64,000 bases of DNA, taken from the NCBI GenBank assembly GCA_000155695.1, contig DS990592.1:3271973-3335972 (forward strand). The letters run 5' to 3'. A model generated the notes under the pieces. The model made no database searches, was not told where the DNA came from, and saw only the letters and a program-made list of their open reading frames with translations. Position numbers and translations under genes: made by a program. Shown piece after piece: positions 7,417 to 62,866 of the stretch. The stretch is from Verrucomicrobiia bacterium DG1235. GTDB lineage: Bacteria > Verrucomicrobiota > Verrucomicrobiia > Opitutales > Opitutaceae. Every line of letters starts with the position of its first letter. The first letter of the stretch is position 1.

Positions 7417-8151
7417 ATGACCCAAAACCCAACACCCAGCACCCAGCACCCCACGCCGACCGACGCGCGAACCATCGTCATCGAGCTCAGCACCATGCGC
7501 TCCGGCTCCACCCTACTCAAAGCCCTCCTCTCCGCCGCCCCCGACATCTCCTCCCTCCCCGAAGTCAACTTCACCAAATTCCAGTCCCCCGACGCCCTCC
7601 AGAAGATCCACGCCCTCTGCTCAGAACGCATCATCATCCTCAAACGCCCCGCCTGGTTCAACGACGCCTCCCGCTACCCCAAGCTCCCCGCCGTCCCCGA
7701 CACCCGCCATCTCATCCTCACCCGCGACGTCCACACCAACGTCGCCTCCCTGCGCAAAATGGTCTTCCGCAAGCTCGAGCCCTACCTCCCCCGCGGCCCC
7801 ATCGACCGCTGGCTCGCCAACTACTGGTCCAAATCCTACGACTCCCTCCTCGCCCGCTTCCCCGACGACGGCCAAAAAAACATCTGGGTCCGCTACGAAG
7901 ACCTCGTAGCCAACCCCATCCACTGGACCGAAAAACTCTTCGCCTTCCTCGGCTCCGAACACACCGAAGGCGTCGACTCGTATCCGCCACCCCAGGACTA
8001 CGACTGGAAATGGGGCACCGACGACGGCGGCGACAAAATAAAATCCCTCAAAGTCCAGCCCAACCCCATCCCCCAATCCTCCCTCGACATCCTCGATCGC
8101 GTCCGCGACATCCCCCGCGTCGCCACCACCCGCCAAGCCCTCGGTTACTAA
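7417..8151 (+). CDS. Sulfotransferase family protein
   Basis: A 244-residue soluble protein with no signal peptide. Residues 19-36 (IVIELSTMRSGSTLLKAL) match the 5'-phosphosulfate-binding loop of PAPS-dependent sulfotransferases (xxRSGSTLL). Residues near 160 (WVRYEDLVANP) match the downstream RYEDL-NP element typical of the family, and HLILTRDVHTNVASLRKM matches the 3'-phosphate-binding Arg/Ser region. It should transfer sulfate from PAPS to a hydroxyl or amine, possibly on a carbohydrate or lipid; the acceptor cannot be told. The sulfatase gene starts 58 bases downstream on the same strand, so the two may be co-transcribed. The first 15 residues are Thr/Pro-rich and perhaps not all translated. 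Confidence 0.8.
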   Translation: MTQNPTPSTQHPTPTDARTIVIELSTMRSGSTLLKALLSAAPDISSLPEVNFTKFQSPDALQKIHALCSERIIILKRPAWFNDASRYPKLPAVPDTRHLILTRDVHTNVASLRKMVFRKLEPYLPRGPIDRWLANYWSKSYDSLLARFPDDGQKNIWVRYEDLVANPIHWTEKLFAFLGSEHTEGVDSYPPPQDYDWKWGTDDGGDKIKSLKVQPNPIPQSSLDILDRVRDIPRVATTRQALGY

Positions 8152-8161
8152 TAAACGTAGC

Positions 8162-8180
8162 GCGGTGCTTCAGCCCGCGT
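8162..8180. repeat. Short intergenic hairpin before the sulfatase
   Basis: CGCGG and CCGCG pair around the loop TGCTTCAGC, directly upstream of the sulfatase start. The surrounding text looks like a dispersed intergenic repeat. An alternative GTG start of the sulfatase would run through it, which is one reason to prefer the ATG at 8210. Confidence 0.4.
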
Positions 8181-8209
8181 CCCCGCCACCCCAATCACGC
8201 CCCTCTACC

Positions 8210-9994
8210 ATGCGCCAACTCCTCATCATCCTCTTCTCATTCACCACTCACTACTCACTACTCACCCCTCTTTCCGCCGCTTCGGGCGGAAATCCCCCCA
8301 ACGTCCTCGTCATCCTCGCCGACGACCAAGGCTGGGGAGATCTCTCCCTCCACGGTAGCCAAAATCTCAATACACCCACCCTCGACCGACTCGCCCAACA
8401 AGGGGCCCAGTTCGAAAACTTCTACGTCCAACCCGTCTGCTCCCCCACCCGCGCCGAATTCCTCACCGGCCGCTACTACCCACGCGGCGGCGTCTACGAC
8501 ACCGGAGCCGGCGGCGAACGCCTCGACGCCGACGAAGAAACCATCGCCCAAGTCTTCCGCACCGCCGGCTACGCCACCGCCGCCTTCGGCAAATGGCACA
8601 ACGGCACCCAAGCCCCATACCACCCAAACACCCGCGGCTTCGACGAATACTACGGCTTCACCTCCGGACACTGGGGCTCCTACTTCGACGCCCTGCTCGA
8701 CCACAACGGCTCCCTCGTCCAAAGCGCCGGCTACCTCCCCGATACCCTCACCACCGCCACTCTCGACTTCATCGAACAACAAACCGCCGACCAAACACCC
8801 TTCTTCGCCTACCTCGCCCTCCCCACTCCACACTCCCCCATGCAAACCACCGACGAAGACTGGGCCCGCTTCGCCAACAAAAAACTCACCTCCCTCGCCA
8901 CCAACCCCGCCGACGAAAACCCCGACCACACCCGCGCCGCCCTCGCCATGGTCGAAAACATCGACGCCAACGTCGGCCGCCTCCTCGACCGTATCCAAGA
9001 ACTCGATATCGAAGAAAATACCATCGTCGTCTACTTCACCGACAACGGCCCCAACGGCTGGCGCTACAACGCCAATATGCGTGGACGCAAAGGCTCCACC
9101 GACGAAGGCGGCACCCGCTCCCCCCTCTTCATCCGCTACCCACAAAAGATTCAGCCCGGCGCCACACTCAATACCATCGCCTCCTCCATCGATCTCCTCC
9201 CCACCCTCGGCCAACTCGCCAACATAACCTGGCAGCCCGCCCAAACCCTCGACGGCATCAGCCTCGCCCCCCAACTCCAAAACCCCAACCTCCGCCTTCC
9301 CGACCGCACAATCTTCTCCTACTGGTCCGGCCGCATCTCCGCCCGCACCCAAGACTACCGCCTCGACCACCAAGGCCAACTCTACCACATCCCCACCGAC
9401 CGCGGCCAAACCACCGACCTCTCAACAAAACACCCCGAGCTCACCGCCTCCCTCCAATCCCAAATCGACGCCTGGCGCTCCGAGCTCCTCACCCCAGACG
9501 CCGCCAACCCCGACCGTCCCCTCACCATCGGCTACCCCGGCCTCGCCATCACCCAACTCCCCGCCCGCGACGCCACCTGGTCAGGCAACATCACCCGCTC
9601 AAACCGCTGGCCCAACTGCTCCTACCTCACCGACTGGACCAGCGACGACGACCGCATCACCTTCACCGCCCACGTCGGCCAATCCGGCACCTACCAAGCC
9701 ACTCTCTACTACTCCGCCCCCAAGTCCGCCATCGGCACCGAGATCACCCTCACCACCTCAAACGGCTCCCAAACCACCGCCCGTATCCAACAAGCTCATA
9801 CGCCCCCCGCCTACGGCATGCAGCACGACCGCGTCCCCCGCGAAGAATCCTACGTCAAAGACTTCGCCCCCCTCGACCTCGGCCAAATCACCCTCCCCGA
9901 AGGTCCAACCACCCTCACCCTTTCCACCCTGAACATCAGCTCAAACACATCCCTCGAATTCCGACTCCTACTCCTGGAAAAAGCAGCAAATTGA
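8210..9994 (+). CDS. Secreted type I sulfatase (arylsulfatase family)
   Basis: Hydrolyses sulfate esters, probably on algal or other sulfated polysaccharides outside the cytoplasm. Starting at the ATG at 8210 the 594-residue protein has a signal peptide (MRQLLIILFSF ... LSAASG). Residues 29-45 give the metal-site start NVLVILADDQGWGD. CSPTR at 77-81 is the formylglycine signature (C-x-P-x-R), with the Cys matured by an FGE or anSME; TGRYYPRGG follows. GKWHNG near 129 is the second signature and FTDNGPNG holds further metal ligands. After about residue 445 comes an extra beta-sandwich-like domain (WSGNITRSNRWPNCSYLTDW onward) that could bind carbohydrate. Substrate class cannot be assigned from motifs. 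Confidence 0.92.
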   Translation: MRQLLIILFSFTTHYSLLTPLSAASGGNPPNVLVILADDQGWGDLSLHGSQNLNTPTLDRLAQQGAQFENFYVQPVCSPTRAEFLTGRYYPRGGVYDTGAGGERLDADEETIAQVFRTAGYATAAFGKWHNGTQAPYHPNTRGFDEYYGFTSGHWGSYFDALLDHNGSLVQSAGYLPDTLTTATLDFIEQQTADQTPFFAYLALPTPHSPMQTTDEDWARFANKKLTSLATNPADENPDHTRAALAMVENIDANVGRLLDRIQELDIEENTIVVYFTDNGPNGWRYNANMRGRKGSTDEGGTRSPLFIRYPQKIQPGATLNTIASSIDLLPTLGQLANITWQPAQTLDGISLAPQLQNPNLRLPDRTIFSYWSGRISARTQDYRLDHQGQLYHIPTDRGQTTDLSTKHPELTASLQSQIDAWRSELLTPDAANPDRPLTIGYPGLAITQLPARDATWSGNITRSNRWPNCSYLTDWTSDDDRITFTAHVGQSGTYQATLYYSAPKSAIGTEITLTTSNGSQTTARIQQAHTPPAYGMQHDRVPREESYVKDFAPLDLGQITLPEGPTTLTLSTLNISSNTSLEFRLLLLEKAAN

Positions 9995-48998: not shown

Positions 48999-49383
48999 AG
49001 TGCGAAAATGTGTGAGGACCGAAATGGCTAGAGAACTTTCTCGCCGAATACAAGCGCCCATCAGCCCACGGATCGAGAGCAAGTAGCTTTTCGCAAAACA
49101 GGCATATAACCAGAACCGTCTCTCGAACCACGAAAACAGGGACAGCTGCTCACTCCACTACCTAAGATCCAGACCTCCCGAGTCCACAAAACTACTAATA
49201 GGCTCGAGAACACACGCTGATAACCGACTGAACCCTTCCCTTAGCTAGCTTTTAACAAAAAACCCGAGACCTGTTCACTCGGACCAGTTCAGAAAGCGAC
49301 GGTAACTACCGATAAATTCAATCGTGAGTCACCACTACCACACCCTGCAAATACCTGCAGGTTTACTCTCAAGGGCTTCGACC
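48999..49383. other. 385-bp region between divergent PFK and sensor kinase genes
   Basis: No supported gene. It contains a weak hairpin (CCGAG/CTCGG around 49265-49285, next to an A-run) and the palindrome ACCTGCAGGT near the kinase start. Promoters for both genes should lie here; none is convincing by eye. A GTG at 49324 could start the kinase 20 codons earlier. Confidence 0.5.
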
Positions 49384-52300
49384 ATGACCCGAGCTGCAGC
49401 AAGGAAGAATCTCCTCCGTCCACAGATTCTAATACTCGCCCTTGTCTGTCTGGCGTCGCTCAGCGCTACCCATGCCTACTCCCAAGCGGAATCAGAAAGG
49501 AGGACAGAAACAGAGCTCCTCAAACTCCAAAATATCGGTGAATTCTGGGAGGCTTCCAAAAACGAGAAAACGAGCCATCTCACCCACTCCTACGAGTTCG
49601 ACATCACGGTTCTCTACTACGATCCCCATTGGCACTTGCTTTGGATCGCCAACAAAGGCCATTCCACTGGCTTCTTCCCTATTCTCAAAAAGCCCTTCCC
49701 TTTCGAAAATGGTCAAGTTCTGACCATCAAAGGAGAACTCATTCCATCCGAGGGTCTTGATCCCGATAAGATGGAAATCGCAAGAGCGTCGACGAGCGTC
49801 GAGCTTCCGACTAAGGAACTTTCAAACGTACTATCCGAAGCTAGAGAACAGAACTTTCAATGGGTTTCCGTCCATGCGTTTGTCGACGAGCAAACTCAGG
49901 TTGACCCGCAGCATATCGATTTTGAACTCATACGCGGCTCCCAACGAATCAAGGCCCACCTGCTTGTCGATCCAGACCGAAAGATCCCCAATCTCACACG
50001 GACCTTTGTTCACTTCAAAGGCCTACTTGTCACTGAACCCAACTACGAAAATCCGCTAGGCAGCCTCGTCCTGTGGAGCAGTGACCAAAACCATATCAGC
50101 CAGAGCCAACAAAAACGAGCAGACAGCTTCGAGTCCCAAGCCATCCCAATCCAAGAACTCAGAGATCACGCGACCAACGAATGGGTCAGGATTGAAGGCA
50201 CCGTGCAATCCTTCGAACGCGGACAACATCTCTCGCTGTCCGACCCTACTGGATACATCCAAGTCATACCCAACCAAACCCTCCAACTCAATATCGGCGA
50301 CAAAATTGAGGTACTTGGAAGTCCCCTGGAAAACGACAACGGATGGACGCTCGCAAACGCGCTTTACCGACCAATCACAGACTTTGATCTTCAAGGTTCA
50401 ATGCGAGGGGTCACCTCTGAAAACAAATACCACATCAGACTGGCCAGCGAAATTCTTCAACTCGACTCGCTGCAAGCCATCCAACAACAAACCGCCAAAC
50501 TTAGCGGAGTCATCACCTACTCAGACCCCGAAAAACGCTACTTCTACCTCAACGACCTCTCCGGAGGCATACGAGTGCAGCTTGAAGAGCCATGGCCAGA
50601 CGCCATACCTGCGGGTAACTTCGCGTACGTCGATGGACACGTATCCCCTGGCGGCTTCGCTCCGTTCATCACTGCGGAAAAGCTACGAATCACAGGGCCT
50701 TCCAAAATGCCAGACTCCAAGCTGGTAACCCTTCCGCAAGCCCTGACGGGCATCGAAGAAGGCCGGTGGATCGAAATGAAGGCAAACCTCTACGGGATGG
50801 AGACCGAAGGCAGGACTACCATTCTGAAACTCTCGAGCCCCACCGGAGAGTTCACTGCCCTACTGCCGCTCTCACACCAACAGCTGGAGATAAACAAGGG
50901 ATCGACCATCAGCGTAAAGGGAGTTTGCGTCGCTAGTGATCGAGAAAACAACCAGCTCCCAGGGGTTTCCATACTCGTGCCAAACACTAGCCGTATCACA
51001 ATTATAGATACCGCCCCAAAGGATCCATTCAGCTACAATCCGACCCCCATTCCCAATATCCTTCGCTATCGCTCGATGAAGACTGCCGCGAAACAGGTCC
51101 TCATCCGCGGAACCGTACTTCTTCATATACCTGGAAAAAGTATTTTTATCAGCGATGGAGAGCACACCGTGAGGGCCCTACTAGACTCCGATACGCCAAC
51201 CCAGCCAGGCGACATCGTAGACATTGTCGGACTTCCCGGCCGATCAGGAAATCACTTCGTCCTGCGCAACTCGATGCTCAAAAAAGTTGAGAGCGGCACC
51301 CCGCCAAAACCCACAGTGATAAGCCAAGATTCGCCTCTCGAAAAAAGCCGCTACGCCCAACTCGTGCAGTACAAGGGAAGACTTATTGATAGCGAACAAA
51401 ACGACGAGCAGACCCGACTCGTCGTACAGCTTAACGGATACCTTACGGAAGTCCTTTTCCCCAATTCCCCCAAAACCGAAAGCCAAAAATGGCAAAACGG
51501 ATCTCAACTTCAAGTCAGCGGACTCTACTTCAACGAAGCCGACGAATACAGTTCCTCCAAGTCTATAACAATCCTAGCCCGCAACCCATCCGATATACAG
51601 GTGCTCCAGCTCCCTAGCTGGTGGAATCAACAGCGCGCCCTCGCCGTTTCCGGCGGATCCGCACTCGCCCTAGTCCTCGGTATCGCGTGGGTTACCACGC
51701 TCAAGCGACGCGTCAAAAAGCAAACCTCACTAATCAGACAACAAGTAGACAAAGAAAAGCAACTCATCGAAGCAGCTACCGATTTCATCTTCACTCTCGA
51801 TCTCCAAGGCAATTTCACCTCATTCAATTCCACATGCGAATCAATCACTGGATTCTCACGCGACGAAATTAAAACAATGCTCGTCTACGATCTGCTAAAC
51901 AAAGCAGACGCCAAACTCGCTCGACTCGCTCTCACGCGGCGAAAAACAAAAGCGGAAACAAAAAGCCTGCAGAGCGAGATCATTCGCAAGGACGGCTCCA
52001 AACTCTGGGTAGAAACCAGCCTCCGCTTTCTTCGAACAGAAGGAAAAGTGACAGGTATGTTTTGTATCATGCGAGACATTACACTACGAAAAAAAGTCCA
52101 CCAGGAACTCACTCGCGCTCGCGACGCCGCCGAATCCAACACCAAAGCCAAAAGCGCTTTCCTCGCCACCATGAGTCATGAGCTGCGCACTCCCATGAAT
52201 GGCGTTATTAGCATGGCCAACATCCTGCTCGATACTGACCTAGACGAAACTCAACGCGACTACACCAGCACGATTCGCGACAGTGGCGAATCGCTCCTAA

Positions 52301-53292
52301 CGCTCCTCAACGACATACTCGACCTCTCGAAAGCGGAAGCGGGCAAGCTTTCCATCGAACCCTTCGAGCTCGACCTAAAAGAACTACTCAACCAAAGCGT
52401 CTCCCTGCTCAGTACCACAGCACAGCAAAAGAACATCCAGCTAGAAACAAACGTTACAGACGATACCCCCACCTTGCTCATTGGTGACGCCGGACGCATT
52501 AAACAGGTCATTCTAAACCTCACAGGAAACGCCATCAAGTTTACAGAGGACGGTCACGTTAAAATAAACGTATCCAAACTCGAGGATACAAATAAACATG
52601 TAAATATTCGTATTGAAATTGAAGATACAGGCGTAGGGATTTCAGAAACGGCAGCGTCACGCCTCTTCCGCCCCTTCGAACAAGCAGACGGATCACACTC
52701 ACGTCGCTTCGGGGGCACCGGGCTTGGGCTCGCCATATCTAAGGAAATCGTCGAGCTTATGGATGGAGAAATCGGCGTCGATAGCGTGCTCGGAAAAGGG
52801 TCGACATTCTGGTTCACCCTAAAACTCGAAAAGGTAGATATTGACGCCCAACAACAAACTCTCATCTCTAAAAGCAAAGAGAAATCTGCCAAGAAGAGCC
52901 AACGCTGGAAGGGTCCGCCGCTCAAGATCCTCATCGCCGAAGACTTGCCAATTAATCAACGCGTCACCCGACTCCAACTCAAAAAAATTGGCCTCACCGC
53001 AGACCTGGCGGAGAACGGAGTCGAAGTGCTCGATGCAGTAAGATCAAAACGCTACGACGTCATTTTGATGGATTGCCAAATGCCAGTTATGGACGGCTAC
53101 CAAGCTACAAAAAAGCTGCGAGCCGTTCCGGAGCATTCAGATATCCATATCGTAGCGCTCACCGCCAACGCGATGGAAGGAGACAAAGAACGCTGCTTCG
53201 CCGCCGGAATGAATGACTTCGTCAGCAAACCAACTCGACCGGACACCCTCCTCACCGCCTTCGAAAACTTCGCGAAGGTCGGGAGAAACTAA
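49384..53292 (+). CDS. Hybrid sensor histidine kinase with a large repeated OB-fold-like periplasmic region
   Basis: 1302 residues. A signal peptide or first helix (about 12-33) is followed by roughly 715 periplasmic residues and a membrane helix at 752-773 (ALAVSGGSALALVLGIAWV). The periplasmic part looks like seven tandem OB-type beta barrels, starting near 63, 155, 264, 368, 458, 568 and 655; they share an opening like VRIEGTVQ or VLIRGTVL and a closing like GDKIEVLG or GDIVDIVG. The cytoplasmic part holds PAS (795-910, FIFTLDLQGNFTSFNSTCESITGF), HisKA with His932 (MSHELRTPMNG), HATPase (NAIKFT, DTGVGIS, GGTGLGLAIS) and a receiver with Asp1230 (DVILMDCQMPVMDGY). There is no HPt or output domain, so it must pass phosphate to a partner elsewhere. 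Confidence 0.93.
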   Translation: MTRAAARKNLLRPQILILALVCLASLSATHAYSQAESERRTETELLKLQNIGEFWEASKNEKTSHLTHSYEFDITVLYYDPHWHLLWIANKGHSTGFFPILKKPFPFENGQVLTIKGELIPSEGLDPDKMEIARASTSVELPTKELSNVLSEAREQNFQWVSVHAFVDEQTQVDPQHIDFELIRGSQRIKAHLLVDPDRKIPNLTRTFVHFKGLLVTEPNYENPLGSLVLWSSDQNHISQSQQKRADSFESQAIPIQELRDHATNEWVRIEGTVQSFERGQHLSLSDPTGYIQVIPNQTLQLNIGDKIEVLGSPLENDNGWTLANALYRPITDFDLQGSMRGVTSENKYHIRLASEILQLDSLQAIQQQTAKLSGVITYSDPEKRYFYLNDLSGGIRVQLEEPWPDAIPAGNFAYVDGHVSPGGFAPFITAEKLRITGPSKMPDSKLVTLPQALTGIEEGRWIEMKANLYGMETEGRTTILKLSSPTGEFTALLPLSHQQLEINKGSTISVKGVCVASDRENNQLPGVSILVPNTSRITIIDTAPKDPFSYNPTPIPNILRYRSMKTAAKQVLIRGTVLLHIPGKSIFISDGEHTVRALLDSDTPTQPGDIVDIVGLPGRSGNHFVLRNSMLKKVESGTPPKPTVISQDSPLEKSRYAQLVQYKGRLIDSEQNDEQTRLVVQLNGYLTEVLFPNSPKTESQKWQNGSQLQVSGLYFNEADEYSSSKSITILARNPSDIQVLQLPSWWNQQRALAVSGGSALALVLGIAWVTTLKRRVKKQTSLIRQQVDKEKQLIEAATDFIFTLDLQGNFTSFNSTCESITGFSRDEIKTMLVYDLLNKADAKLARLALTRRKTKAETKSLQSEIIRKDGSKLWVETSLRFLRTEGKVTGMFCIMRDITLRKKVHQELTRARDAAESNTKAKSAFLATMSHELRTPMNGVISMANILLDTDLDETQRDYTSTIRDSGESLLTLLNDILDLSKAEAGKLSIEPFELDLKELLNQSVSLLSTTAQQKNIQLETNVTDDTPTLLIGDAGRIKQVILNLTGNAIKFTEDGHVKINVSKLEDTNKHVNIRIEIEDTGVGISETAASRLFRPFEQADGSHSRRFGGTGLGLAISKEIVELMDGEIGVDSVLGKGSTFWFTLKLEKVDIDAQQQTLISKSKEKSAKKSQRWKGPPLKILIAEDLPINQRVTRLQLKKIGLTADLAENGVEVLDAVRSKRYDVILMDCQMPVMDGYQATKKLRAVPEHSDIHIVALTANAMEGDKERCFAAGMNDFVSKPTRPDTLLTAFENFAKVGRN

Positions 53293-53323
53293 CCCCGAAC
53301 AACTGCCTGTAGTACGATAATAG

Positions 53324-54736
53324 CTACAGCAACATTCGACGACTCACAATCTCCCGCCAATAGCTCTCCACCAGCCCCATCCGCAAGCCAATCGCTTCTC
53401 GAGCATCCCGAAGACTAAGTTTCTCTAGACCTCGAAAAGCGACGTCCTGCAGCGGCGAGCACGTTGAGATAAACCCGAGCCGCGCCCCATCGTGGTACAC
53501 CTGGCGCATGTCATCGGAATAAACCCCGTCCCCGGAAACCTCGCACATCTGCATCATCGCTAGCTTCAAATCTGCCGCATAAGTCGTCTGCCGATTGCTG
53601 CTCCCGTCATAGAATCCCCTGCAAAACGCCCGATCCCTCGGACTCGCCCCTCGGCCGAGCAAGGCATGCACCCAGACGCGCTCCTCCCTTTCCTCACCCA
53701 CGCGCCCTTCCCAAATCGAGTGAGCCGTATCCCGAGCGAATCGCTCCTTCGCCTCCAACAAGTTCGTTCGCGATACCTCAAAATAGTCGTCCCAACGCTG
53801 AGCCTCCAAATCCTGCTGCACGAGCGGATGCTCCTTCTCGTCAAGAACCTTACTAATCTCCTCGAAACACGCGCGAGCCGTGTCTCGCTGCTCCTCCAAA
53901 ACCGCGAGTAGCTTCGCATGCGCAGCTTCAAGCCCATCACGAAAAGACGCCTCCTCGATCTCAGGCAAGGCATCCGACGCGTCGAGCAAACGATTCGCCT
54001 CAGCCGCAGCCTCCTCAAAACTACGCGACGAATCAGTCGGCAAAACACTGAAACAGTCATCCCATTCGTCATCCGGCAATAGCCTCCGCGTCGCCGGATC
54101 TTCAAGAAAACGCTGCTGCTCTATATCCCGATAATAAGCCTCCAACATCCCTATCTTGAGATTCACCCGCTTGCGTACCTCATCAATCGTCATGTCCAGA
54201 TACGGAGTGAAATCCACCAAATCAAGTGGTTCGCAGTCTGAGATATAACCTAGCTTCGCCGCATCCAAAAACACACTACGCGACTCGTCATCCATCTGAT
54301 ACGCATTCGGATAATAGTGCTTGGCGATGTAGGCAAACACCTCCCGATTCAAAGACTGAAGCTTGTTCGTCGAGCCCATCGTAAAGCCGATCACAAACGC
54401 CTCATCCTTCGGCAGAAGCCCCCGACCGAGCAGCACATGAATATAGTCGTGCGCCCGCAAATCCACACCACCATAGAAGAAGCTCTTCACCAAGTGCGAA
54501 TCCTTCCCCTCCGTCCAACGAATCACCTCGGGGATCTTCCCCTGCGGAGCCGCCACTACTTGCAGATACTCGTAGGCCTGCCGCAGCGTCAAATGTCCGT
54601 ACGAAAGCGGGAGAAACCAGCGCTTGTAGGAAACCTTACCGCTTTTCAACGCTCGAACCCGCACGCCACGCGGCACGCGCGGATCTTCATCTGTCGTAAT
54701 ATAATTTCCACTACGCTTGGCAAATTCGTCATACAT
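53324..54736 (-). CDS. Protein with two tandem Coq4-like domains, the second degenerate
   Basis: 470 residues, no signal peptide or membrane helix. Residues 95-205 and 352-462 are clearly related: HDYIHVLLGRGLLPKDEAFV with VWVHALLGRGASPRDRAF, LDAAKLGYISDCEPL with HDGARLGFISTCSPL, and NLKIGMLEAYYRDI with GLRMGLVESYWREI. The first copy carries His96-Asp97-x2-His100-x11-Glu112, the metal-binding HDxxHx11E pattern of Coq4, a ubiquinone-biosynthesis protein. In the second copy these positions are Arg353, Val354, His357 and Arg369, so the site is lost. A charged helical linker (about 235-330) joins them. It is the last gene of a six-gene operon, 20 bases after telA. The Coq4 relation is inferred from the motif; an enzymatic role is open. 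Confidence 0.75.
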   Translation of the reverse strand: MYDEFAKRSGNYITTDEDPRVPRGVRVRALKSGKVSYKRWFLPLSYGHLTLRQAYEYLQVVAAPQGKIPEVIRWTEGKDSHLVKSFFYGGVDLRAHDYIHVLLGRGLLPKDEAFVIGFTMGSTNKLQSLNREVFAYIAKHYYPNAYQMDDESRSVFLDAAKLGYISDCEPLDLVDFTPYLDMTIDEVRKRVNLKIGMLEAYYRDIEQQRFLEDPATRRLLPDDEWDDCFSVLPTDSSRSFEEAAAEANRLLDASDALPEIEEASFRDGLEAAHAKLLAVLEEQRDTARACFEEISKVLDEKEHPLVQQDLEAQRWDDYFEVSRTNLLEAKERFARDTAHSIWEGRVGEEREERVWVHALLGRGASPRDRAFCRGFYDGSSNRQTTYAADLKLAMMQMCEVSGDGVYSDDMRQVYHDGARLGFISTCSPLQDVAFRGLEKLSLRDAREAIGLRMGLVESYWREIVSRRMLL

Positions 54737-54756
54737 AGCCTCGAAGAATGTTCAAA

Positions 54757-55968
54757 CTACTGAACCTCAAGATCCAGACTATCGATTTTCGGAGCGATCT
54801 TGCTGCCGGCCCGCATGCGCTGAATGGCTTCTTCCCCGGCCTTCGATAGCGTGTCGAGCTCTTGAATCTGTACCGCCATCTGCGGAAGCGCTTCCTGGCG
54901 ATAGCGAGCGATATCGTCCATGGCCGCCGTGATGTCGTTGAACGACGACTTCAACGCCTCCATATCGAGCGAGGTCGAAGCTGCCTGCTTGTGGATTTCA
55001 ACTCCCTGCGTGCGCAAACGCGAAGCCGTGCCCGCGATCAGCTTTGAAGTTGTCCGATTCAAAGATTCGATCTTGTCGAGCACTAGCTTCTGGTTCGCTA
55101 GGGCGAGCGCCACCGTGACCGCTACTTGTAGTGCTGAAACGGTTACATTGATTGCCCGACCGACTCCACGGATCAATTCGCGATTATTACGAATAATCAA
55201 CTCGATGGAAAGAATCCCCTGCTGGTTAACCACCAGCTGCTGCTGCAGATCCTGAATACGCTGACGCAACGGGAAAACCAGCTCCTCGGAAATGAACTTG
55301 TGACGCGGATCCTCCGGAGCAATCTCGCGCTCAAGCTGATAGCTCAGCTTCTCGTCAATCACCTGCCCCATCGAGATGAGTCGCGACAACTGCTGCGTCA
55401 GTTTCTGCATCACCACCTGGTCCTGAGCCAAAGTCTTGTTGTCACGCTCTAGCGTATCACGACCGGCTTCCAAAGACTTGATGATCTGATCAATCAGCTC
55501 CTGGGCGCTCGCATACTTCAGAAAGTACGCCTCAATCTTATTTCCGATTCCGGGAATCCAAGACAAGGCCTTCGCTACGCCGCTCACGCTAAAGTCCAAG
55601 TCGTTGGGATTCAGCTCGTCGATTTCCTGCTTAAGTGAAATCAAAGCATCCGCCACCGGCCCGCCCTCGCCGCCGCGCTCCATCAATTGCTTGATCGGCT
55701 GCTGCAACATCTTGCTTCGATGCGAGGATGCCCTCTGCACATCCACGCCCATCGAGTCGATAAGCGCCTTCTTCGACGCCTTGTCCTCCGGATCATCCGG
55801 CTGAATCGCGATCACCGCGGCGACGAACTGGTCAGCCTTGACCACGATTTCCGGATCGAGCGCCGCCGGTTCCTTTTCCTCAACCTGAGCGAAACCGAGC
55901 TCAACCTTGAGATCATCTGGAGTTGAGAGGCTCAAGGCCTCGGATGGAGTGTTGGTGGATTCTGACAT
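54757..55968 (-). CDS. telA: TelA/toxic anion resistance family protein
   Basis: 403 residues, soluble and mostly helical. Family text runs from about residue 60 to 385: SSHRSKMLQQPIKQLM, FSVSGVAKALSWIPGIGNKIEAYFLKY, SAQELIDQIIKSLEAGRDTLERDN, VFPLRQRIQDLQQQL, ELIRGVGRAINVTVSALQVAVTVALALANQKLVLDKI. TelA proteins were named from tellurite-resistance loci and recur with vWA and membrane proteins in stress operons; their molecular action is unknown. It lies four bases after the coiled-coil membrane protein gene, indicating close co-expression and probably physical contact. Confidence 0.92.
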   Translation of the reverse strand: MSESTNTPSEALSLSTPDDLKVELGFAQVEEKEPAALDPEIVVKADQFVAAVIAIQPDDPEDKASKKALIDSMGVDVQRASSHRSKMLQQPIKQLMERGGEGGPVADALISLKQEIDELNPNDLDFSVSGVAKALSWIPGIGNKIEAYFLKYASAQELIDQIIKSLEAGRDTLERDNKTLAQDQVVMQKLTQQLSRLISMGQVIDEKLSYQLEREIAPEDPRHKFISEELVFPLRQRIQDLQQQLVVNQQGILSIELIIRNNRELIRGVGRAINVTVSALQVAVTVALALANQKLVLDKIESLNRTTSKLIAGTASRLRTQGVEIHKQAASTSLDMEALKSSFNDITAAMDDIARYRQEALPQMAVQIQELDTLSKAGEEAIQRMRAGSKIAPKIDSLDLEVQ

Positions 55969-55972
55969 AAGG

Positions 55973-56788
55973 CTATTTTTGGGTTTGGTAGATTTCTACA
56001 TTATTTGAAAGATGGGAAAGTTCCGAAATCGCGGCATCCATTTCTAGCTTCGCTTGCCCTGGAGCTGTATCCACTGAGGAAAGACGGCTACCTGTTTCTA
56101 GCAACTGCGTCATCGCTTTCTCGTTTTGATTGAGTAAGGCATCGATTCGCTCCTTCGCCTCATCGGCAAGCCGCAGGCGACTTCGCAGGGCCTCGTAGTC
56201 TGCCTCCGAATTTTGGATACCATTTTCGTCAAGGTACTTGATCTGCTTCTCTATGTAAGAGCGATCTATCGAACTCACGCTCTTGAGCTGGATAACGACC
56301 TTCTGAAGATTGTCCACACCCGCGAGATAAACCTGCTCCGCCACTCCCAGATACCGACCAAACGTCAACTCATGCTCCTCGAACTTCTCGCCCACGATCG
56401 CCGCAAAGGTTTCGTACTTCACCCTCAAGTTCGACAACTGAGCGCTCCCGGCCTCGCAGCCTAGCTTCGTCAGCTCATCGCCTATCGCCTGAATCCTCGC
56501 CTCGCGCTCCCGACGCATCTGCTCGCGCAATCGCCTCAAGTACTTGACCGCCATCCGGTCCTTTCCAAACGCGAATCCATACGCCCACATCGCGCCTCCG
56601 GCGAGAGCGAGCCCCCCAATCGCAATGCCAATCCAAGCCGCATCGAACATAGCAAAACTCACCCCTAGTCCCATAGCCGCCGCCACCGGATAGCTGCTGG
56701 CAGGCTGAGTCCAGATCCGACGATTCACCGATCGAGACACGCTCTTCCGCGAAAAGTCCTCAACTGCTAGCTGCCTTTTATTCGCCAT
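55973..56788 (-). CDS. Two-TM coiled-coil protein of the TelA operon
   Basis: 271 residues. After a basic N-terminus come two adjacent helices at about 33-50 and 52-73 (AAAMGLGVSFAMFDAAWIGIAIGGLALAGGAMWAYGF), then a long charged coiled coil (80-110 and 140-240). TelA genes are often accompanied by such two-helix/coiled-coil proteins (XpaC-like in Firmicutes), but I cannot show homology. Most of the protein should lie in the cytoplasm, where it could link TelA to the membrane. It starts two bases after the preceding gene's stop. Confidence 0.75.
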   Translation of the reverse strand: MANKRQLAVEDFSRKSVSRSVNRRIWTQPASSYPVAAAMGLGVSFAMFDAAWIGIAIGGLALAGGAMWAYGFAFGKDRMAVKYLRRLREQMRREREARIQAIGDELTKLGCEAGSAQLSNLRVKYETFAAIVGEKFEEHELTFGRYLGVAEQVYLAGVDNLQKVVIQLKSVSSIDRSYIEKQIKYLDENGIQNSEADYEALRSRLRLADEAKERIDALLNQNEKAMTQLLETGSRLSSVDTAPGQAKLEMDAAISELSHLSNNVEIYQTQK

Positions 56789-56790
56789 CT

Positions 56791-58329
56791 CTAATACGTA
56801 TCCCTCAAAAATGAAAACTCCACCCGCGACAACCTATTCTGATGCGCTCGATAGGACTCGCCCGCCAATCTCCGCAAAGGCTGCTCGCCGCCAACTCCCA
56901 CCGCTCGCACCCGATCCTCGTCTATCGCGTAGTGATCAACTAAATACTTTGCCACGGATCGAGCTCGCTCTTCCGATAGCTGACGATTCGCTTCCGCATC
57001 TCCTCGAGCGCTTGTATGCCCCGCCACTAGAATTCGAAAATCGGGATAGTTCTGCAAGATATCGACCATCTCCTCAATCGAACTGACTCCTTCCGGACTC
57101 AAACCCGCAGTCCCGCTCTGAAAGGAGATCGGGCGCAACTTTAATGTCCCTACACTCTGCAAAGAATTCCATTGCTCCGCGTTGAGCGGCCGAAAGTCAC
57201 GACTCGAACCAGCTCCCGCCATAGCGCGATTCCGAGACTGACCTCCCAACAAATCGAGAATAACTGTATCGTAAATCACACTACGCGGATCTCCTCTTGG
57301 CAAAGGACTCGTGGAAAAATCTCCAAACTCAATCAACACTCCCACCGTTCGCTCGATTGAATCATAGAGCCGATACATTGGAGAAGCTCCATCCTGCAAG
57401 GCGCCAAACCACAAAAACGCGTTTTCAGACAACCCCTTCCATTCCACCCCATCGATCAATGTTCGCGCTGAATCTTCGGATACATTCGCATCGAGAGCAA
57501 TTTGCTCCACAAGGTCCAACGGATTCGAGCGGTAATCATCGAGAACTGAATAATACAGACCTAAAAAATCGCTCAACGCCTCCGGCTCCGACTGAATAAA
57601 ATCGTGCCGAGCCACCAGCACGTCGACAATCAATCCGGCCGCGCTTTCCGAACCTATCAGCTTCACAAAACGATCATCCTTCAAAGCTACCGACAAGTCC
57701 GGCTCCCAAAGCACCGCCAGCTCTACCCGCTCCGACATCAATTCCTCGAGCGCCTCTTCAGAGCCCCCCACCAGCCTCTGCCACGAACGATTCCCACTCA
57801 GCTCCTCCAAGCCGAAATCCACCGAAATCGCCTTCAGCAAATGGTGGCTGGGCGAATCCCCCGTAAACACGATCTTCCGCGGCGTCCCATCCTTGAGATC
57901 GTCGATGCCAGCAACCGAATCCACTCGACCGACCAGAGCATCGCTCCCTTTCGACTCTGAAAGCACCGCGACGATACTGCCGGGATAATCGCGATCCCTT
58001 CCATTCAGAAGAAATGAATCGACCGTAAACACCGCCAGATCAATTTCGCCCCGCGAGAGGGCTTCGACCCTTCTTTTGTAGTCGCCGCCGTCATCCGCCA
58101 AGCTCAAGCCATAGCCCTCGCCTAGCAAGCGATCGCGAAACGCCTTCGAGCGAAAGATGAAATAGCCAGCATAGGGATCAATTCCCAGCCGGATCGTCGC
58201 CTTCGTCTGAGTCAAGGAGCTAGCCGCTCCACGCTCTTTCTCGATCTTGTATCCTCGATACTGATACGGTCCCACTGACACCAGCACGATCGCGGCAAAC
58301 AAAAAAAAGGCTCCTCTTAACTCGCGCAT
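56791..58329 (-). CDS. Periplasmic solute-binding domain fused to OmpA-like domain (second SBP-OmpA)
   Basis: 512 residues. An N-terminal helix (GAFFLFAAIVLVSVGPYQY) anchors or exports it. Residues 45-300 look like a type II periplasmic binding protein of the NMT1/phosphonate kind (ATIRLGIDPYAGYFIF, GEIDLAVFTVDSFLLNG, KIVFTGDSPSHHLLKAI, VELAVLWEPDLSVAL). Residues 395-505 form an OmpA C-terminal domain (LRPISFQSGTAGLSPEG, NRQLSEERARSVAKYLVDHY, DRVRAVGVGGEQPL). The peptidoglycan-contacting Asp of the usual GHTD is Ser here (AGHTSARGD). No permease or ATPase is linked, so the binding domain probably senses instead of importing. Confidence 0.83.
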   Translation of the reverse strand: MRELRGAFFLFAAIVLVSVGPYQYRGYKIEKERGAASSLTQTKATIRLGIDPYAGYFIFRSKAFRDRLLGEGYGLSLADDGGDYKRRVEALSRGEIDLAVFTVDSFLLNGRDRDYPGSIVAVLSESKGSDALVGRVDSVAGIDDLKDGTPRKIVFTGDSPSHHLLKAISVDFGLEELSGNRSWQRLVGGSEEALEELMSERVELAVLWEPDLSVALKDDRFVKLIGSESAAGLIVDVLVARHDFIQSEPEALSDFLGLYYSVLDDYRSNPLDLVEQIALDANVSEDSARTLIDGVEWKGLSENAFLWFGALQDGASPMYRLYDSIERTVGVLIEFGDFSTSPLPRGDPRSVIYDTVILDLLGGQSRNRAMAGAGSSRDFRPLNAEQWNSLQSVGTLKLRPISFQSGTAGLSPEGVSSIEEMVDILQNYPDFRILVAGHTSARGDAEANRQLSEERARSVAKYLVDHYAIDEDRVRAVGVGGEQPLRRLAGESYRAHQNRLSRVEFSFLRDTY

Positions 58330-58349
58330 GCTTCGCTATCCGATCTCCG

Positions 58350-59123
58350 CTAGTTTTGAAAATCGCTCGGATCGATGAAACTCTCAGACTCGGAGGCGAT
58401 CACCTGATTTAGCGCGTCTATCAAAGCTTTCGGCGAACTCGCTGTTACGTACTGCGTCACGCCGGGTAAATTCAAGGCATGATCCGCAACTCCAAACCCA
58501 ATCGTCTGCACCTCGATCGGCGACTCCCGAGTCACCTCCATCGCCACACCGGCCGGATTGCCGTCGCTCGAAGCTCCGTCCGTCACGATTACCAACACGT
58601 AACGGCCATATCCGCTCTGACGCTGAGCCTGCTCCGTCAAAACACGATAGCCAGTCACGATCGACTCCACCAATGGCGTCCGCCCCTTAGCCCGTATTTG
58701 AGAAACGGATCCAATAAACGCCTGCCGATTCCCCCGCCCCAGCGGCAACAACTCCCGCACAGGATCAAAGGTCAGCAAACCTAGATTAGCGTCCTCCGGC
58801 AAATTATTGGCAAAGGTGACCAATGCCTGCTTGCCTGCCTCGATTTTCGGAAGCTGCTGGGCCACCAGCTCATTCATGCTCCCACTCGCGTCAAAAATCA
58901 CATAGTAATTCGTCAGCACCGGATCTGCCTCCATCAAAACATTCGCTTCCTGAATCGCGGGAGGCCAAGGTCCATCCGGTATTAAGTTCGTCACTACAGC
59001 CTTTCGAGACTGGCTCGAAGGGACTGGCGACTGCGGAGGAGGATTTTCGTTGCTATCCTTCAAAATCATCAGCACCGCGACCACGCCGATTGCTGCAATC
59101 GTTCCTAGCTTATTCTTATTCAT
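58350..59123 (-). CDS. Membrane-anchored von Willebrand factor A domain protein
   Basis: 257 residues. One N-terminal helix (TIAAIGVVAVLMILK), a Pro/Ser-rich spacer, and a vWA domain from about 70 to 240. The metal-ion-dependent adhesion site is complete: DASGSM (Asp78, Ser80, Ser82), the Thr of RTPLVESI and the Asp of VIVTDGASSDG. The domain therefore can bind a divalent metal and a protein ligand, and it faces the periplasm if the helix is a signal anchor. It sits between the two SBP-OmpA genes, with gaps of 12 and 20 bases. Confidence 0.9.
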   Translation of the reverse strand: MNKNKLGTIAAIGVVAVLMILKDSNENPPPQSPVPSSQSRKAVVTNLIPDGPWPPAIQEANVLMEADPVLTNYYVIFDASGSMNELVAQQLPKIEAGKQALVTFANNLPEDANLGLLTFDPVRELLPLGRGNRQAFIGSVSQIRAKGRTPLVESIVTGYRVLTEQAQRQSGYGRYVLVIVTDGASSDGNPAGVAMEVTRESPIEVQTIGFGVADHALNLPGVTQYVTASSPKALIDALNQVIASESESFIDPSDFQN

Positions 59124-59135
59124 AGCGAGGACCGG

Positions 59136-60905
59136 TTAAAAGAGAGGCTCAAACACTTCGGCTTCCGCCTCCACCTGTATCAACCGGAATACGACACGCC
59201 GCGTCGCCTCCCACTCCTCCCGCGTGCGCGGGGCGCTCGCAAGGCTAAGGTCTCCATCCGCATCATACGAGGCGCCTTGCGTGTTGGGCTTCATCACCCC
59301 ATGCCCCACTACGCCGAACTGACTCGGATCAAGACTCAGCCCCATCGCCTGCCCGTAGTTCATCAGACTATCCTTCACCGCGTTTGCTCGCGAATAACTA
59401 AGATTCTTAGCCGACTGCTTCACTCGATTCAACACCATCTGCTGGGAGCCATTCTTCTTAGCCCGAAGATAACTCGTCGGATCGCTATGCCCCTCGATCG
59501 TCAACAAGGCCCCGCCATATATCGAAACCAACTCGATCACCTTGTTGAATTCACTCTGATACAAGTCTGAGGAAAAGGCATTCTGATTTGGACTAAAATA
59601 GATCTCAAAAGCGTATAGCTCCCCTTCATCGAGCGTATTCATTTGCTGGCGACGTGAAAGCACCGCCGCTACAGCCCCCTCATCAAATCGCTTCGTCTCC
59701 GCAACGAGGCTCGCGCCCGAAAGCTGACGCAATCGCTCGTAGTCAAACGGGGCCTTCGAAAGCTCGCGAGTCGTCTGGATCAACCCGAGCCCAAGGAACG
59801 AATTCTGTATCTCTGAGTTCAATGCCTCGAACCGACGCTGATCGTGAGGATTCGTGAAAAAACGCTGGTTGCCTCCAAGACCGACAAACCGCGCATCCGC
59901 GTACATCCCGCGCATATCCTCAACCATATTCGCGTCATCGAGCAGCAACTCCGCCGAAGCCCGAAGCGTCTCGTTCAGCTCAGAGCCATTTGCCGCAACT
60001 TGCTCCCTCAAGGCTTCCTCCGCCTTCGCCAAGGCAACCACGAACTTTTCCACCACCTCTGGGTACCGTTGATAGAAATCACGCCGCACCGCGTACACGT
60101 CGGCGATCACGCGGTCAGCCGTTTTCGTTGAAAGCAATATCTTCGCGCCGTGCACGCTGCCCTCAGCCCCGGTTCCGACAGAGCCGCCCGAAGTGAGCGC
60201 CAAGGCATCCGGAATGATCGCCATCGCCGCATCTACCTCCGCGTCTTGCGCGAGCGCCATGGCTGGACTGCTCGAGTCTGGTCCAGCCTCGAAGAGATCC
60301 GGCATCCAGCGGATAGTCACGTCGTCTGTAGTGAGTCCGACACTACTAAGCACTGTCGTCAAATAATCCACATGGGGTCCGTATGCCTGCAAGGCGATCG
60401 TCTTCCCCTTCAAATCTGCAGGACGTCGTATGCTATCTTTAACTACAAGAGCATCACCTCCAGCCGACCAAGTCAGCTGATAGATCACTACCATCTCCGT
60501 AAACGATTGCCGCTCTGTCACGTCCGTCGCCATGTTCAGCATACCCATCGTTCCCCGCAGAAATGGCGTATCACCCCTCAAGTATCCCTCAACCTGGCGG
60601 GCGAAATTGTCCTCTCGATAGAGCGACACCTCCAGGCCTTGTTCAGCGAAAGCGCTACCGCCACGCGTCACCCGAGCATTGCCATTCGCTAGCACCGTTT
60701 GAATATCTCCTCCCCAAGCAATGAGGGGGACCTTCAGTCGAGTCGAAGATCCGCTCCAAGCCTGAGCCTGCACAGTGACGCTCTCCGAAAGCGGGTCTTG
60801 GCTCACATAGTCGAGCCCTAAGGCTGCCGCAACGAAAACGGGAAATGAAATAAAAAGACACGAGGTACGCAGCAACCTCGCAAGGTGGGTTAGTTGGGTA
60901 GTCAT
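59136..60905 (-). CDS. Periplasmic solute-binding domain fused to OmpA-like domain (first SBP-OmpA)
   Basis: 589 residues and the first gene of the operon. After an N-terminal hydrophobic segment (SCLFISFPVFVAAALGL), residues 55-360 resemble a type II solute-binding protein (KVPLIAWGGDIQTVLANG, LKGKTIALQAYGPHVDYLTTVLSSVGL, DAEVDAAMAIIPDALAL). Residues 435-585 form an OmpA-like domain (YAFEIYFSPNQNAFSSDLYQ, LTIEGHSDPT with the peptidoglycan-binding Asp kept, LSYSRANAVKDSLM, FGVVGHGVMKP), with a 15-20 residue insert between GHSD and the SRA helix. It differs strongly from the second SBP-OmpA, so the two may bind different ligands or form a heteromer. Confidence 0.85.
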   Translation of the reverse strand: MTTQLTHLARLLRTSCLFISFPVFVAAALGLDYVSQDPLSESVTVQAQAWSGSSTRLKVPLIAWGGDIQTVLANGNARVTRGGSAFAEQGLEVSLYREDNFARQVEGYLRGDTPFLRGTMGMLNMATDVTERQSFTEMVVIYQLTWSAGGDALVVKDSIRRPADLKGKTIALQAYGPHVDYLTTVLSSVGLTTDDVTIRWMPDLFEAGPDSSSPAMALAQDAEVDAAMAIIPDALALTSGGSVGTGAEGSVHGAKILLSTKTADRVIADVYAVRRDFYQRYPEVVEKFVVALAKAEEALREQVAANGSELNETLRASAELLLDDANMVEDMRGMYADARFVGLGGNQRFFTNPHDQRRFEALNSEIQNSFLGLGLIQTTRELSKAPFDYERLRQLSGASLVAETKRFDEGAVAAVLSRRQQMNTLDEGELYAFEIYFSPNQNAFSSDLYQSEFNKVIELVSIYGGALLTIEGHSDPTSYLRAKKNGSQQMVLNRVKQSAKNLSYSRANAVKDSLMNYGQAMGLSLDPSQFGVVGHGVMKPNTQGASYDADGDLSLASAPRTREEWEATRRVVFRLIQVEAEAEVFEPLF

Positions 60906-61028
60906 AGGTTCAGAAAAATTCCGGGTCGCAAATGACAGACTAGGTATTTTCTCGTAATCCAGTCAACTGCTAAGCGAACAAGTTCCACTTCCTTTTAAAA
61001 ACCCTAGCCGCCCATCTGGCAACACTTG

Positions 61029-61940
61029 CTAACCAGCTCCTACCCACAAGGGCGATTGGCGCATGGCCAATTCCTCGCCACGCCTCAATTCCACCTCTAC
61101 CTGACCAAGCCGCATCCCCGCCCAACCTTGCTGAGTGATTCGCGTCACGCCACCACCCCTGCGCGGTAGCTCAACAAGCTCGTCCAAAAATGTATGCGAA
61201 TGAGCCCCCAGAATCAGGTCGATCCCCTCCACCTCCGCCGGGAAACGATCGTCGCGCATTTCCTCGCCCTCGTAGCGCGTGTTGTAGCCCATATGCGAAA
61301 GGCATACGATCACGTTACACCCGCGAGCCTTCAACTCCGCCACCGAGCGACGCGCAGACTCCACCGGATCGAGGTAGCTTACACCCTCGTGATTATGCCC
61401 AGCCACCATGCCGTCAAATTTGCAAAGCAGTCCGAACAACCCCACCTTGAACGGACCGATCTGCTTGATAGTCCAAGGCTTAACAATCGGAGCCAAGGCC
61501 TTCGCTCCACTCCAATCAAGATTGCTCGAAATCCACTCGAACCCCGCCAACGGCATCGTCTTTTCAAGACCCTCGATTCCGTTGTCGAACTCGTGATTCC
61601 CCACCGTCGCGACCTCGTAACCCATCTTGTTCATCGCCTCGATCTCCACCTCGCCACCATAAAGATTGTAGTACGGCGTCCCTTGAAACATGTCCCCGCT
61701 GTCCACCAGCAAAGTATACTCTCTTTGCGCGCGTATCCGGTCGATCAATACCTTCCTGCGAGCAACCCCGCCAAGTCCCTGATTCCTGCTCCCGTCCATC
61801 GGAAAAGGATCAATTCGCGAATGCGTATCATTCGTCTGCAAAATCGTCAGCTTCGGCGCCGCATTTCCAACCCTAGCCATCGCTCCCGACAATACCGTCA
61901 GTCCCAAGCCAGCCGTCCCAATAAATCGTCTTCTATTCAT
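61029..61940 (-). CDS. 5'-nucleotidase/UshA-like metallophosphatase, catalytic domain only
   Basis: 303 residues. A Tat-type signal peptide (MNRRRFIGTAGLGLTVLSG) leads to a dinuclear-metal phosphoesterase: LQTNDTHSRIDP, VDSGDMFQGTPYYNLYGG, ATVGNHEFDNG, VCLSHMGYNTR and LILGAHSHTFLDELVE supply the expected Asp, Asn and His ligands. In UshA-type 5'-nucleotidases this domain is followed in the same chain by a substrate-binding C-terminal domain; here that domain is encoded by the upstream gene, which ends 17 bases before this one starts. It probably removes phosphate from nucleotides in the periplasm. Confidence 0.92.
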   Translation of the reverse strand: MNRRRFIGTAGLGLTVLSGAMARVGNAAPKLTILQTNDTHSRIDPFPMDGSRNQGLGGVARRKVLIDRIRAQREYTLLVDSGDMFQGTPYYNLYGGEVEIEAMNKMGYEVATVGNHEFDNGIEGLEKTMPLAGFEWISSNLDWSGAKALAPIVKPWTIKQIGPFKVGLFGLLCKFDGMVAGHNHEGVSYLDPVESARRSVAELKARGCNVIVCLSHMGYNTRYEGEEMRDDRFPAEVEGIDLILGAHSHTFLDELVELPRRGGGVTRITQQGWAGMRLGQVEVELRRGEELAMRQSPLWVGAG

Positions 61941-61957
61941 AATGATATACCTCTCCC

Positions 61958-62719
61958 CTAGTCTATCAGCGTCACACGGTCCTCTCCCGCATCGAAGATC
62001 TTTACCCCTTGCTCCGTCAAAGCCGACAAATGCAGCACGATCGCATCTCGTTGTATCAAATTAGCAGATACACGCTGCTCGATAATCCACTCCTCTCGAA
62101 AAAGCTCCTCCCAAGTCGAGACCAGATAATCGATCGAAACCATCTTATAGCGCCTCTTCGGATCAATAAGCTCCCCGCCAATCCGCGCCTCGACCAGCTT
62201 CTGATCGCTATTGTACGCAACCTGCATGCCGGAAATAGCCGAGGCTCCACCCCCCGAGATTTGCCGCGCCAGCTCCAAGGCCAATTCACCGTCCACTTCC
62301 AAATAGGTCAGATAATTCTGAAACGGCGACAACTCCGTGAGCAAGCCCATCGTCAGCTCCCCCTCCGGCATATTCCGCCGCAAGCCGCCAAAATTAGTTA
62401 CCGCGAAATCTATCTCCTCGCCAAACTCCTTCGCGCCCACCACCCGCAGCGAATCCGCCACTAGGTTCGAAAGACCGCACTCCGGACGCCGCCGCGATAG
62501 CGGCTCCGCCGCATAGCCGATCACCTCCGCCGCAAACGCCTCCACTCCAGCGCGGTACGGAATCAGGTACGCCTCCATCTCCGCGTCGCCCTTCGTCTCC
62601 GCATCGACCCGGACAATCGAGAAATCGACCCCGACCGCCGCCTCCTCCACCGGAGCCGAAACCGCCCACAAGGATGCCCACAAAAAACAGAGACTAAAAA
62701 ACGAAAACCGTACCCGCAT
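61958..62719 (-). CDS. 5'-nucleotidase C-terminal (substrate-binding) domain protein
   Basis: 253 residues from the ATG at 62719, which gives a signal peptide (MRVRFSFFSLCFLWASLWAVSAP); an ATG four codons earlier is also possible. The rest is the UshA C-terminal domain: AEPLSRRRPECGLSNLVADSLR, AVTNFGGLRRNMPEGELTMGLLTELSPFQNYLTYLEVDG, ISGMQVAYNSD and YKMVSIDYLVSTWEE. In that family the Asn-Phe-Gly-Gly-Leu-Arg loop binds the substrate. With the catalytic domain in the next gene, the enzyme is split and in reversed order relative to UshA. Confidence 0.9.
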   Translation of the reverse strand: MRVRFSFFSLCFLWASLWAVSAPVEEAAVGVDFSIVRVDAETKGDAEMEAYLIPYRAGVEAFAAEVIGYAAEPLSRRRPECGLSNLVADSLRVVGAKEFGEEIDFAVTNFGGLRRNMPEGELTMGLLTELSPFQNYLTYLEVDGELALELARQISGGGASAISGMQVAYNSDQKLVEARIGGELIDPKRRYKMVSIDYLVSTWEELFREEWIIEQRVSANLIQRDAIVLHLSALTEQGVKIFDAGEDRVTLID

Positions 62720-62828
62720 GAACGCTACCATCACGAAACGATAGCAACTTTCAAGCCACCACCCGCGCTTTTTCCGCGCCAAACACCCCCCACCCCAACA
62801 AACCTCAAACTTCCCAGCAAACTGCCAT

Positions 62829-62866
62829 GCGCAATCCAATGTCTAACGTTAGACATTCGATTGCGC
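62829..62866. repeat. 38-bp palindrome, copy 2
   Basis: Same sequence as the 40-bp palindrome at 4515-4554 except for one base at 62858 (C for G), which breaks one pair of the right arm; the outermost CG pair is also missing. It lies in the gap between two minus-strand genes, nine bases past the stop of the upstream one. Two copies 58 kb apart with 37 identical bases point to a mobile or conserved genomic element. Confidence 0.85.

Follow-up and report, generated by a model that had tools for sequence, protein, structure and literature searches.

A TelA-containing gene cluster of Verrucomicrobiia bacterium DG1235, related to known PspA/Snf7 operons and possibly devoted to envelope maintenance

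Six minus-strand open reading frames (ORFs) lie close together at 53324-60905 of a 64,000-nt stretch of contig DS990592.1 from Verrucomicrobiia bacterium DG1235 (assembly GCA_000155695.1; this whole stretch is called the window below). They represent the TelA form of a kind whose PspA/Snf7 sister is already in print, and comparison with relatives supports genes 1-5 as a widespread, conserved cluster that is predicted to span the envelope. We consider it evenly balanced whether this operon encodes the TelA form of a widespread system that is tethered to the wall and maintains the envelope, that is, protects the membrane. The gaps between the six ORFs are exactly 12, 20, 2, 4 and 20 bases, as the original prediction from this DNA had it, and the features that matter for the argument are the following.

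59136-60905, minus strand: gene 1, a solute-binding protein (SBP) domain of NMT1 type joined to OmpA, 589 amino acids (aa); SBP at about 60006-60650, OmpA at about 59271-59600, signal-like hydrophobic N-terminus at residues 16-34
58350-59123, minus strand: gene 2, von Willebrand factor A (vWA) protein, 257 aa; VWA E 9e-10, N-terminal hydrophobic anchor at residues 6-24
58878-58892, minus strand: DxSxS motif (D78-S82) of gene 2, which with T149 and D182 gives a complete metal ion-dependent adhesion site (MIDAS)
56791-58329, minus strand: gene 3, SBP-OmpA, 512 aa; N-terminal hydrophobic anchor, OmpA at about 56866-57123, S440 at the canonical Asp position, Arg455 retained
55973-56788, minus strand: gene 4, 271 aa, no Pfam family; broad hairpin-like N-terminal hydrophobic stretch and a helical region
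54757-55968, minus strand: gene 5, TelA, 403 aa; PF05816 match, long helices predicted
55099-55155, minus strand: hydrophobic stretch of TelA (residues 272-290, hydropathy 1.93), a candidate membrane contact
53324-54736, minus strand: gene 6, 470 aa, a Coq4-like protein with an internal duplication; its second copy at about 53330-53674
54401-54451, minus strand: HDxxHx11E motif in the first copy of gene 6 (H96-E112), from the family alignment

Relatives were collected by scanning an alignment of gene 1 against one genome per species (84,980 species), which returned 296 relatives, and the best 80 loci were kept. These loci include near-duplicates, many end at contig borders, and since they were seeded on gene 1 all conservation figures are conditional on it; one locus without a gene 1 ORF (L067) was left out of counts over 79. 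Taxon labels are record titles, mostly of metagenome-assembled genomes (MAGs), and some look questionable, among them L112 and L115, whose titles name Bordetella parapertussis. With unassigned ORFs passed over, the same-strand order of genes 1 and 2 was found in 77 of the 80 loci, that of genes 1, 2 and 3 in 69, the order extended to gene 4 in 54 and to TelA in 40, many contigs ending early. Among the 53 loci whose sequence runs on for 5.5 kb or more downstream of gene 1, the same strand carries the vWA gene in all 53, coiled-coil gene 4 in 49 and TelA in 44, and a full-length second SBP-OmpA protein (at least 430 aa) is present in 51, with none in L101 and pieces in L132 (52 without the length demand). 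These counts rule out the refuting outcome in which TelA and the coiled-coil gene alone would be conserved, and genes 1-5 stand as the set that had been proposed. Gene 6, put forward as a regular member, is an occasional partner instead (6/53 loci). Pairwise identities of gene 1 correlate with those of gene 3 (r 0.91), gene 4 (0.83), gene 2 (0.80) and gene 5 (0.73), shared host phylogeny being left in. As judged from gene order, recurrence across so many labelled phyla exceeds chance expectation.

A search with gene 1 of 387 genomes from the same phylum gave a match in 29, one of them the genome of the window itself, and the surroundings of 20 places from this search were examined for genes related to the six. 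Plasmids yielded seven Vibrio records: the three strong ones examined hold genes 1-5 in the same order, with an ABC ATPase before them and a 'putative urea' SBP and a permease after them, and a fourth, diverged record retains genes 1 and 2 only. The vWA gene is duplicated in tandem in two Nitrospinota MAGs (L057, L058). Three MAGs labelled Sungiibacteriota or Parcubacteria (L063, L077, L116) carry the cluster with an AAA+-type gene of neighbour cluster c7 and group on the gene 1 tree (support 97); this is surprising, as such cells are thought to lack an outer membrane, and misbinning is possible. Two diverged SBP-OmpA loci with an ABC ATPase nearby (L041, L042) may belong to a remoter branch of this system; Pfam finds a vWA gene in L041, and L042 has a weak gene 2 match and an AAA+ gene.

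The position after gene 4 bears most directly on what TelA may do. TelA has been linked to tolerance of tellurite and nisin, by a mechanism on which there is no agreement. Its assignment in the window is clear (PF05816, 243.2 bits against a cut-off of 30, E 4.9e-72), a hydrophobic stretch of at least 1.6 recurs in 33 of 51 homologues, and its structural model has a mean predicted local distance difference test (pLDDT) score of 67. Gene 4 has 67 homologous ORFs across the loci studied. Over 67 loci, the same-strand ORF that comes next after gene 4 is TelA in 47, a PspA-like gene in five and an SBP-type gene in seven, four of which have TelA further along; in the rest the contig ends (5), nothing follows within 1.5 kb (2) or the ORF is unassigned (1). 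One member of the PspA-like set of five lies over the Pfam PspA cut-off, and a profile built from the set finds PspA and Vipp1 among solved structures (best E 4.2e-7). All five PspA-like loci (L035, L036, L037, L039, L131) also carry an AAA+ gene of neighbour cluster c2. That a PspA-family gene sits in the TelA slot of these loci suggests that TelA does a PspA-like job, which offers a direct, testable idea of its role.

Operons that combine PspA/Snf7, AAA+, ABC ATPase, permease and PBPB-OmpA genes are mentioned in the main text of Ravi et al. 2024 (PMC11237479). As that text presents them, they share with the window an SBP fused to OmpA (genes 1 and 3) and a membrane coiled-coil protein; the window differs in having TelA in the PspA slot and six genes with no PspA match and no AAA+ or importer gene. 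The words TelA, toxic anion, von Willebrand, vWA and Coq4 are absent from the same main text. A mostly title-level search found no paper describing the TelA set, of which a prior mention in the Ter-system survey of Anantharaman and colleagues is possible. The claim that the system is not a described one is thus right in part: it probably stands for the TelA set and fails for the PspA/Snf7 sister. The Bacillus subtilis xpaC-yaaN operon also places TelA beside a second gene and, in the part of the literature used here, belongs to a stress regulon, that of sigma-W; that source lists just xpaC and yaaN, whereas gene 4 has no XpaC family match and the 12 families that 45 of its homologues match do not include XpaC. 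For Listeria, the portion of the source at hand gives higher sensitivity to nisin and tellurite for a mutant of the TelA-like lmo1967 (Collins 2010, as cited there) and describes the function of the gene pair as not well established.

The first three genes would face the wall. All have hydrophobic N-terminal segments by hydropathy. Gene 1 matches NMT1 (E 3.4e-9), and its OmpA domain is sub-threshold in Pfam (21 against 27.2 bits) with its wall-binding residues conserved, D475 in 91/91 sequences and R506 in 89/91, positions that we take to be the diaminopimelate-binding ones of characterised OmpA domains. Gene 3 matches OmpA (E 3.2e-17) and an SsuA-type SBP (E 8e-8); its OmpA domain has the Arg in 73 of 75 sequences and the canonical wall-binding Asp in just 2. 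The assumption that the OmpA domains hold peptidoglycan is therefore consistent with the residues of gene 1 and doubtful for both domains together, as gene 3 lacks the Asp. The MIDAS of gene 2 is intact, as had been noted, D78, S80, S82, T149 and D182 each being conserved in 91-93 of 93 sequences.

Genes for an importer and for AAA+ proteins, counted as linked when no more than 10.5 kb from gene 1, whichever the strand, are frequent in relatives. In the 53 loci we found a third SBP (SBP3) in 37, a permease in 35, an ATPase in 34 and all three in 31, with permease and ATPase close together in 30; 24 have an AAA+-type gene. Over the 79 loci an AAA+-type gene is linked in 26, and in 19 of these no other ORF separates it from a core gene. 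Neighbouring genes were sorted into clusters c0-c9, which are single-linkage BLAST groups with Pfam run on representatives only; the representatives of c2, c4 and c7 are AAA+ ATPases, and the c2 member of L062 is a 93 aa fragment. SBP3 exceeded the cut-off of TIGR03427, the family of 'putative urea' ABC importers, in all three cases tested; the permeases tested are nearest TauC and the one ATPase tested nearest PhnT2 and NtrCD, all below cut-offs. Identities correlate between gene 1 and permease (r 0.87), gene 3 and SBP3 (r 0.86) and SBP3 and permease (r 0.90), again with host phylogeny left in.

No such importer is found at the window locus: domain calls with Pfam and NCBIfam on ten ORFs (the six genes and four neighbours) gave no AAA+ ATPase, ABC ATPase or permease, and 14 of the 47 loci that reach 8.5 kb or further downstream likewise have neither SBP3 nor permease. 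The absence of transporter subunits, which had been read as an argument against simple uptake, is thus true of the window's copy, but importer genes stand near 31 of 53 relatives and so uptake has to be weighed. Gene 3 itself reaches 20.5 bits against TIGR03427 (cut-off 333.9). The genome's other match (147.3), on contig C5 (locus L141), is a TIGR03427-like SBP below cut-off accompanied by permease and ATPase ORFs, so that supply of an importer in trans to the window's cluster is possible. The stretch 3376-11027 of L141 holds these ABC importer ORFs with their neighbours and resembles a guanidine or urea operon. The neighbours, named from the sequences alone, are presumably glutamine-synthetase-like, creatininase-like and urea-carboxylase-associated ORFs. 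Rfam gave no match in the window or in six relative loci, and hence no guanidine riboswitch there.

Taken together, these data allow a model in which gene 1 (secreted and wall-binding), gene 2 (a membrane-anchored vWA protein) and gene 3 (a membrane-anchored SBP-OmpA protein) would come together as an assembly in the periplasm. The contacts of this assembly would shift when the SBP domains bind a solute and the vWA domain docks through its metal, and the change would be relayed through gene 4, as a membrane-hairpin coiled-coil protein, to TelA, which at the inner membrane could act as a scaffold in the manner of PspA, protecting or remodelling the membrane. An ABC importer is linked to the set in many relatives and an AAA+ ATPase in about a third; the window locus has no linked importer and has the duplicated Coq4-like gene 6 in addition. 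The data themselves establish the gene set with its order and conservation, the intact MIDAS, the conserved wall-binding residues of gene 1, the importer and AAA+ genes near relatives and the PspA-family genes in the TelA slot. We infer the physical complex, the direction of the signal, the membrane role of TelA and the role of gene 6 from this arrangement. The more specific proposal, that TelA is a functional counterpart of PspA/ESCRT-III trading places with it in one slot, and that the window's machine works without an importer with its output coupled instead to gene 6, is put forward tentatively, as we think it somewhat more likely to be wrong than right. The cluster, which occurs under many phylum labels, brings together in one unit solute receptors tethered to the wall, an adhesion domain that depends on metal, and proteins that are candidates for membrane remodelling.

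A number of results weigh against the maintenance model. TelA shows no detectable sequence kinship with the PspA-like proteins (HHalign probability 0.1), so that, if the functional reading is true, unrelated proteins have been exchanged in one slot. Gene 4 fares similarly against them (HHalign probability 1.4); it is unsupported as a detectable PspA or Snf7 homologue, none of 45 members matching either family, and its topology is compatible with a Snf7 homologue bearing a transmembrane segment. The best fold matches of TelA are alpha-pore-forming toxins, at a Z of 10.6 that is under the tool's trust level for helical bundles. We set these fold matches aside as evidence because helical bundles often yield such values; comparison of the TelA profile with solved structures and a TelA search against phages gave nothing useful. 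Some correlations are weaker (gene 1 with ATPase, r 0.53; gene 5 with ATPase, r 0.38; gene 1 with SBP3, r 0.59; host phylogeny left in), and the one c2-type AAA+ match in the window's genome is 33% identical and distant from the operon. The importer, moreover, is missing at the window locus, and in relatives uptake could be the chief job.

Uptake as the main function is a serious rival, although on balance we hold it to be rather improbable. Wall-tethered SBPs would then hand a specialised solute to the linked ABC importer, with vWA, coiled coil and TelA merely organising the site and, in this genome, the importer acting in trans. The joint linkage of SBP, permease and ATPase, the family assignment of SBP3 and its correlations with gene 3 and permease, and the importer ORFs on C5 all speak for it. 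The loci that, like the window, have neither SBP3 nor permease do not fit, the C5 importer is located in its own metabolic-looking operon, and to our knowledge ordinary uptake requires neither two wall-binding SBPs nor a vWA protein nor TelA. Less likely again is a horizontally spread module that gives resistance to, or defends against, anions or toxins that act on membranes, such as tellurite and bacteriocins, with TelA as the effector. The rarity of TelA in the phylum and the company of gene 1 on its tree (both given below), the copies on Vibrio megaplasmids and the phenotype of the Listeria mutant, as cited above, would suit such a module; against it, a role in metabolism or maintenance would explain equally well why an ABC importer is so often linked. 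The notion that unrelated genes merely share one transcript draws on the occasional presence of gene 6, but we reject it as highly improbable, given the conserved order of genes 1-5 across many labelled phyla and their correlated divergence.

Turning to gene 6, the sequence makes it a real duplication and a remote relative of Coq4. Its two halves align with 78.6 bits (E 2e-23), or 74.3 bits without composition adjustment against a maximum of 21.6 in 100 shuffles, in agreement with its original description as double. The label 'Coq4-like' survives as remote kinship of the first copy, by motif, profile and fold comparison, and not as a family match: Pfam and NCBIfam gave a single weak match below cut-off, and PF05019 does not match gene 6. 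HDxxHx11E, described as the COQ4 metal motif in the part of PMC9774615 used here, is present in the first copy in all nine sequences of the family alignment and missing from the second copy. Compared by HHalign with two PF05019-matching proteins from Kordiimonas, gene 6 gave a probability of 67.5 (E 5e-5). The model of gene 6 (mean pLDDT 60), compared using VIA, has as top matches 6e12 (Z 7.0), a COQ4 homologue according to the same portion of PMC9774615, and 3msq (Z 6.5), titled putative ubiquinone biosynthesis protein, both over residues 48-195, the next match (Z 5.0) lying elsewhere; plain Foldseek returned no match under E 0.001 and ranked 3msq second. An identity as an ordinary Coq4 is not supported, PF05019 being silent and pairwise BLAST aligning mainly the motif (E 0.026). 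Unlike Coq4, moreover, gene 6 is duplicated. Comparison of its profile with solved structures and a scan of the genome's contigs gave nothing useful. The protein is probably lipid- and metal-binding.

As in the window, gene 6 is the gene right after TelA in two loci from Photobacterium, in Oceanobacter and in one MAG. In the phylum it occurs in 7 of the 387 genomes, all of which have a gene 1 match, and the two lie near each other on one contig stretch in three of the seven. The hypergeometric value for this co-occurrence, 6e-9, is an overstatement because three of the gene 1 matches are weak, five of the genomes belong to one genus and only those three pairs share a contig stretch. Absence of the importer is not significantly associated with gene 6 (3/5 loci against 11/42, Fisher p 0.15), and the three loci concerned, two from Photobacterium and one from Oceanobacter, form one branch on the gene 1 tree. 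A Streptomycetaceae plasmid (L150) matches gene 6 at two places, within 7959-9470, where two equal-sized hypothetical ORFs stand in tandem beside an AarF/UbiB kinase gene, a neighbour that would fit quinone or other lipid chemistry.

The window's copy was likely acquired horizontally, to judge from the rarity of TelA in the phylum and the grouping of gene 1. TelA exceeds its cut-off in one of the 387 phylum genomes, the window's own, with weak matches below cut-off in three more, and in one of 57 relatives. In a quick tree, the window's gene 1 groups with three Nitrospinota sequences and one from Kordiimonas (Shimodaira-Hasegawa-like approximate likelihood ratio test, SH-aLRT, 100), apart from the same-phylum loci L033-L037 and L040. 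Of these, L035-L037 have the PspA-like and AAA+ version, L034 shows no TelA and no PspA-like gene, and the loci L033 and L040 are truncated. Base composition is not atypical (0.548 against 0.551 elsewhere).

Within 53100-61200, promoter-like sites show no excess (2 against 4.2 expected), and neither promoter- nor terminator-like sites are commoner than in shuffles. The operon is preceded upstream by two further minus-strand ORFs of 5'-nucleotidase type (61029-61940 and 61958-62839), which hold the two domains of such a protein as separate ORFs 17 bases apart, that of the C-terminal domain coming first in the direction of transcription. Downstream, a convergent gene on the plus strand (49324-53292) adjoins the operon and encodes a hybrid histidine kinase that has PAS and receiver domains; its long N-terminal part bears weak matches to the oligonucleotide/oligosaccharide-binding (OB) fold.

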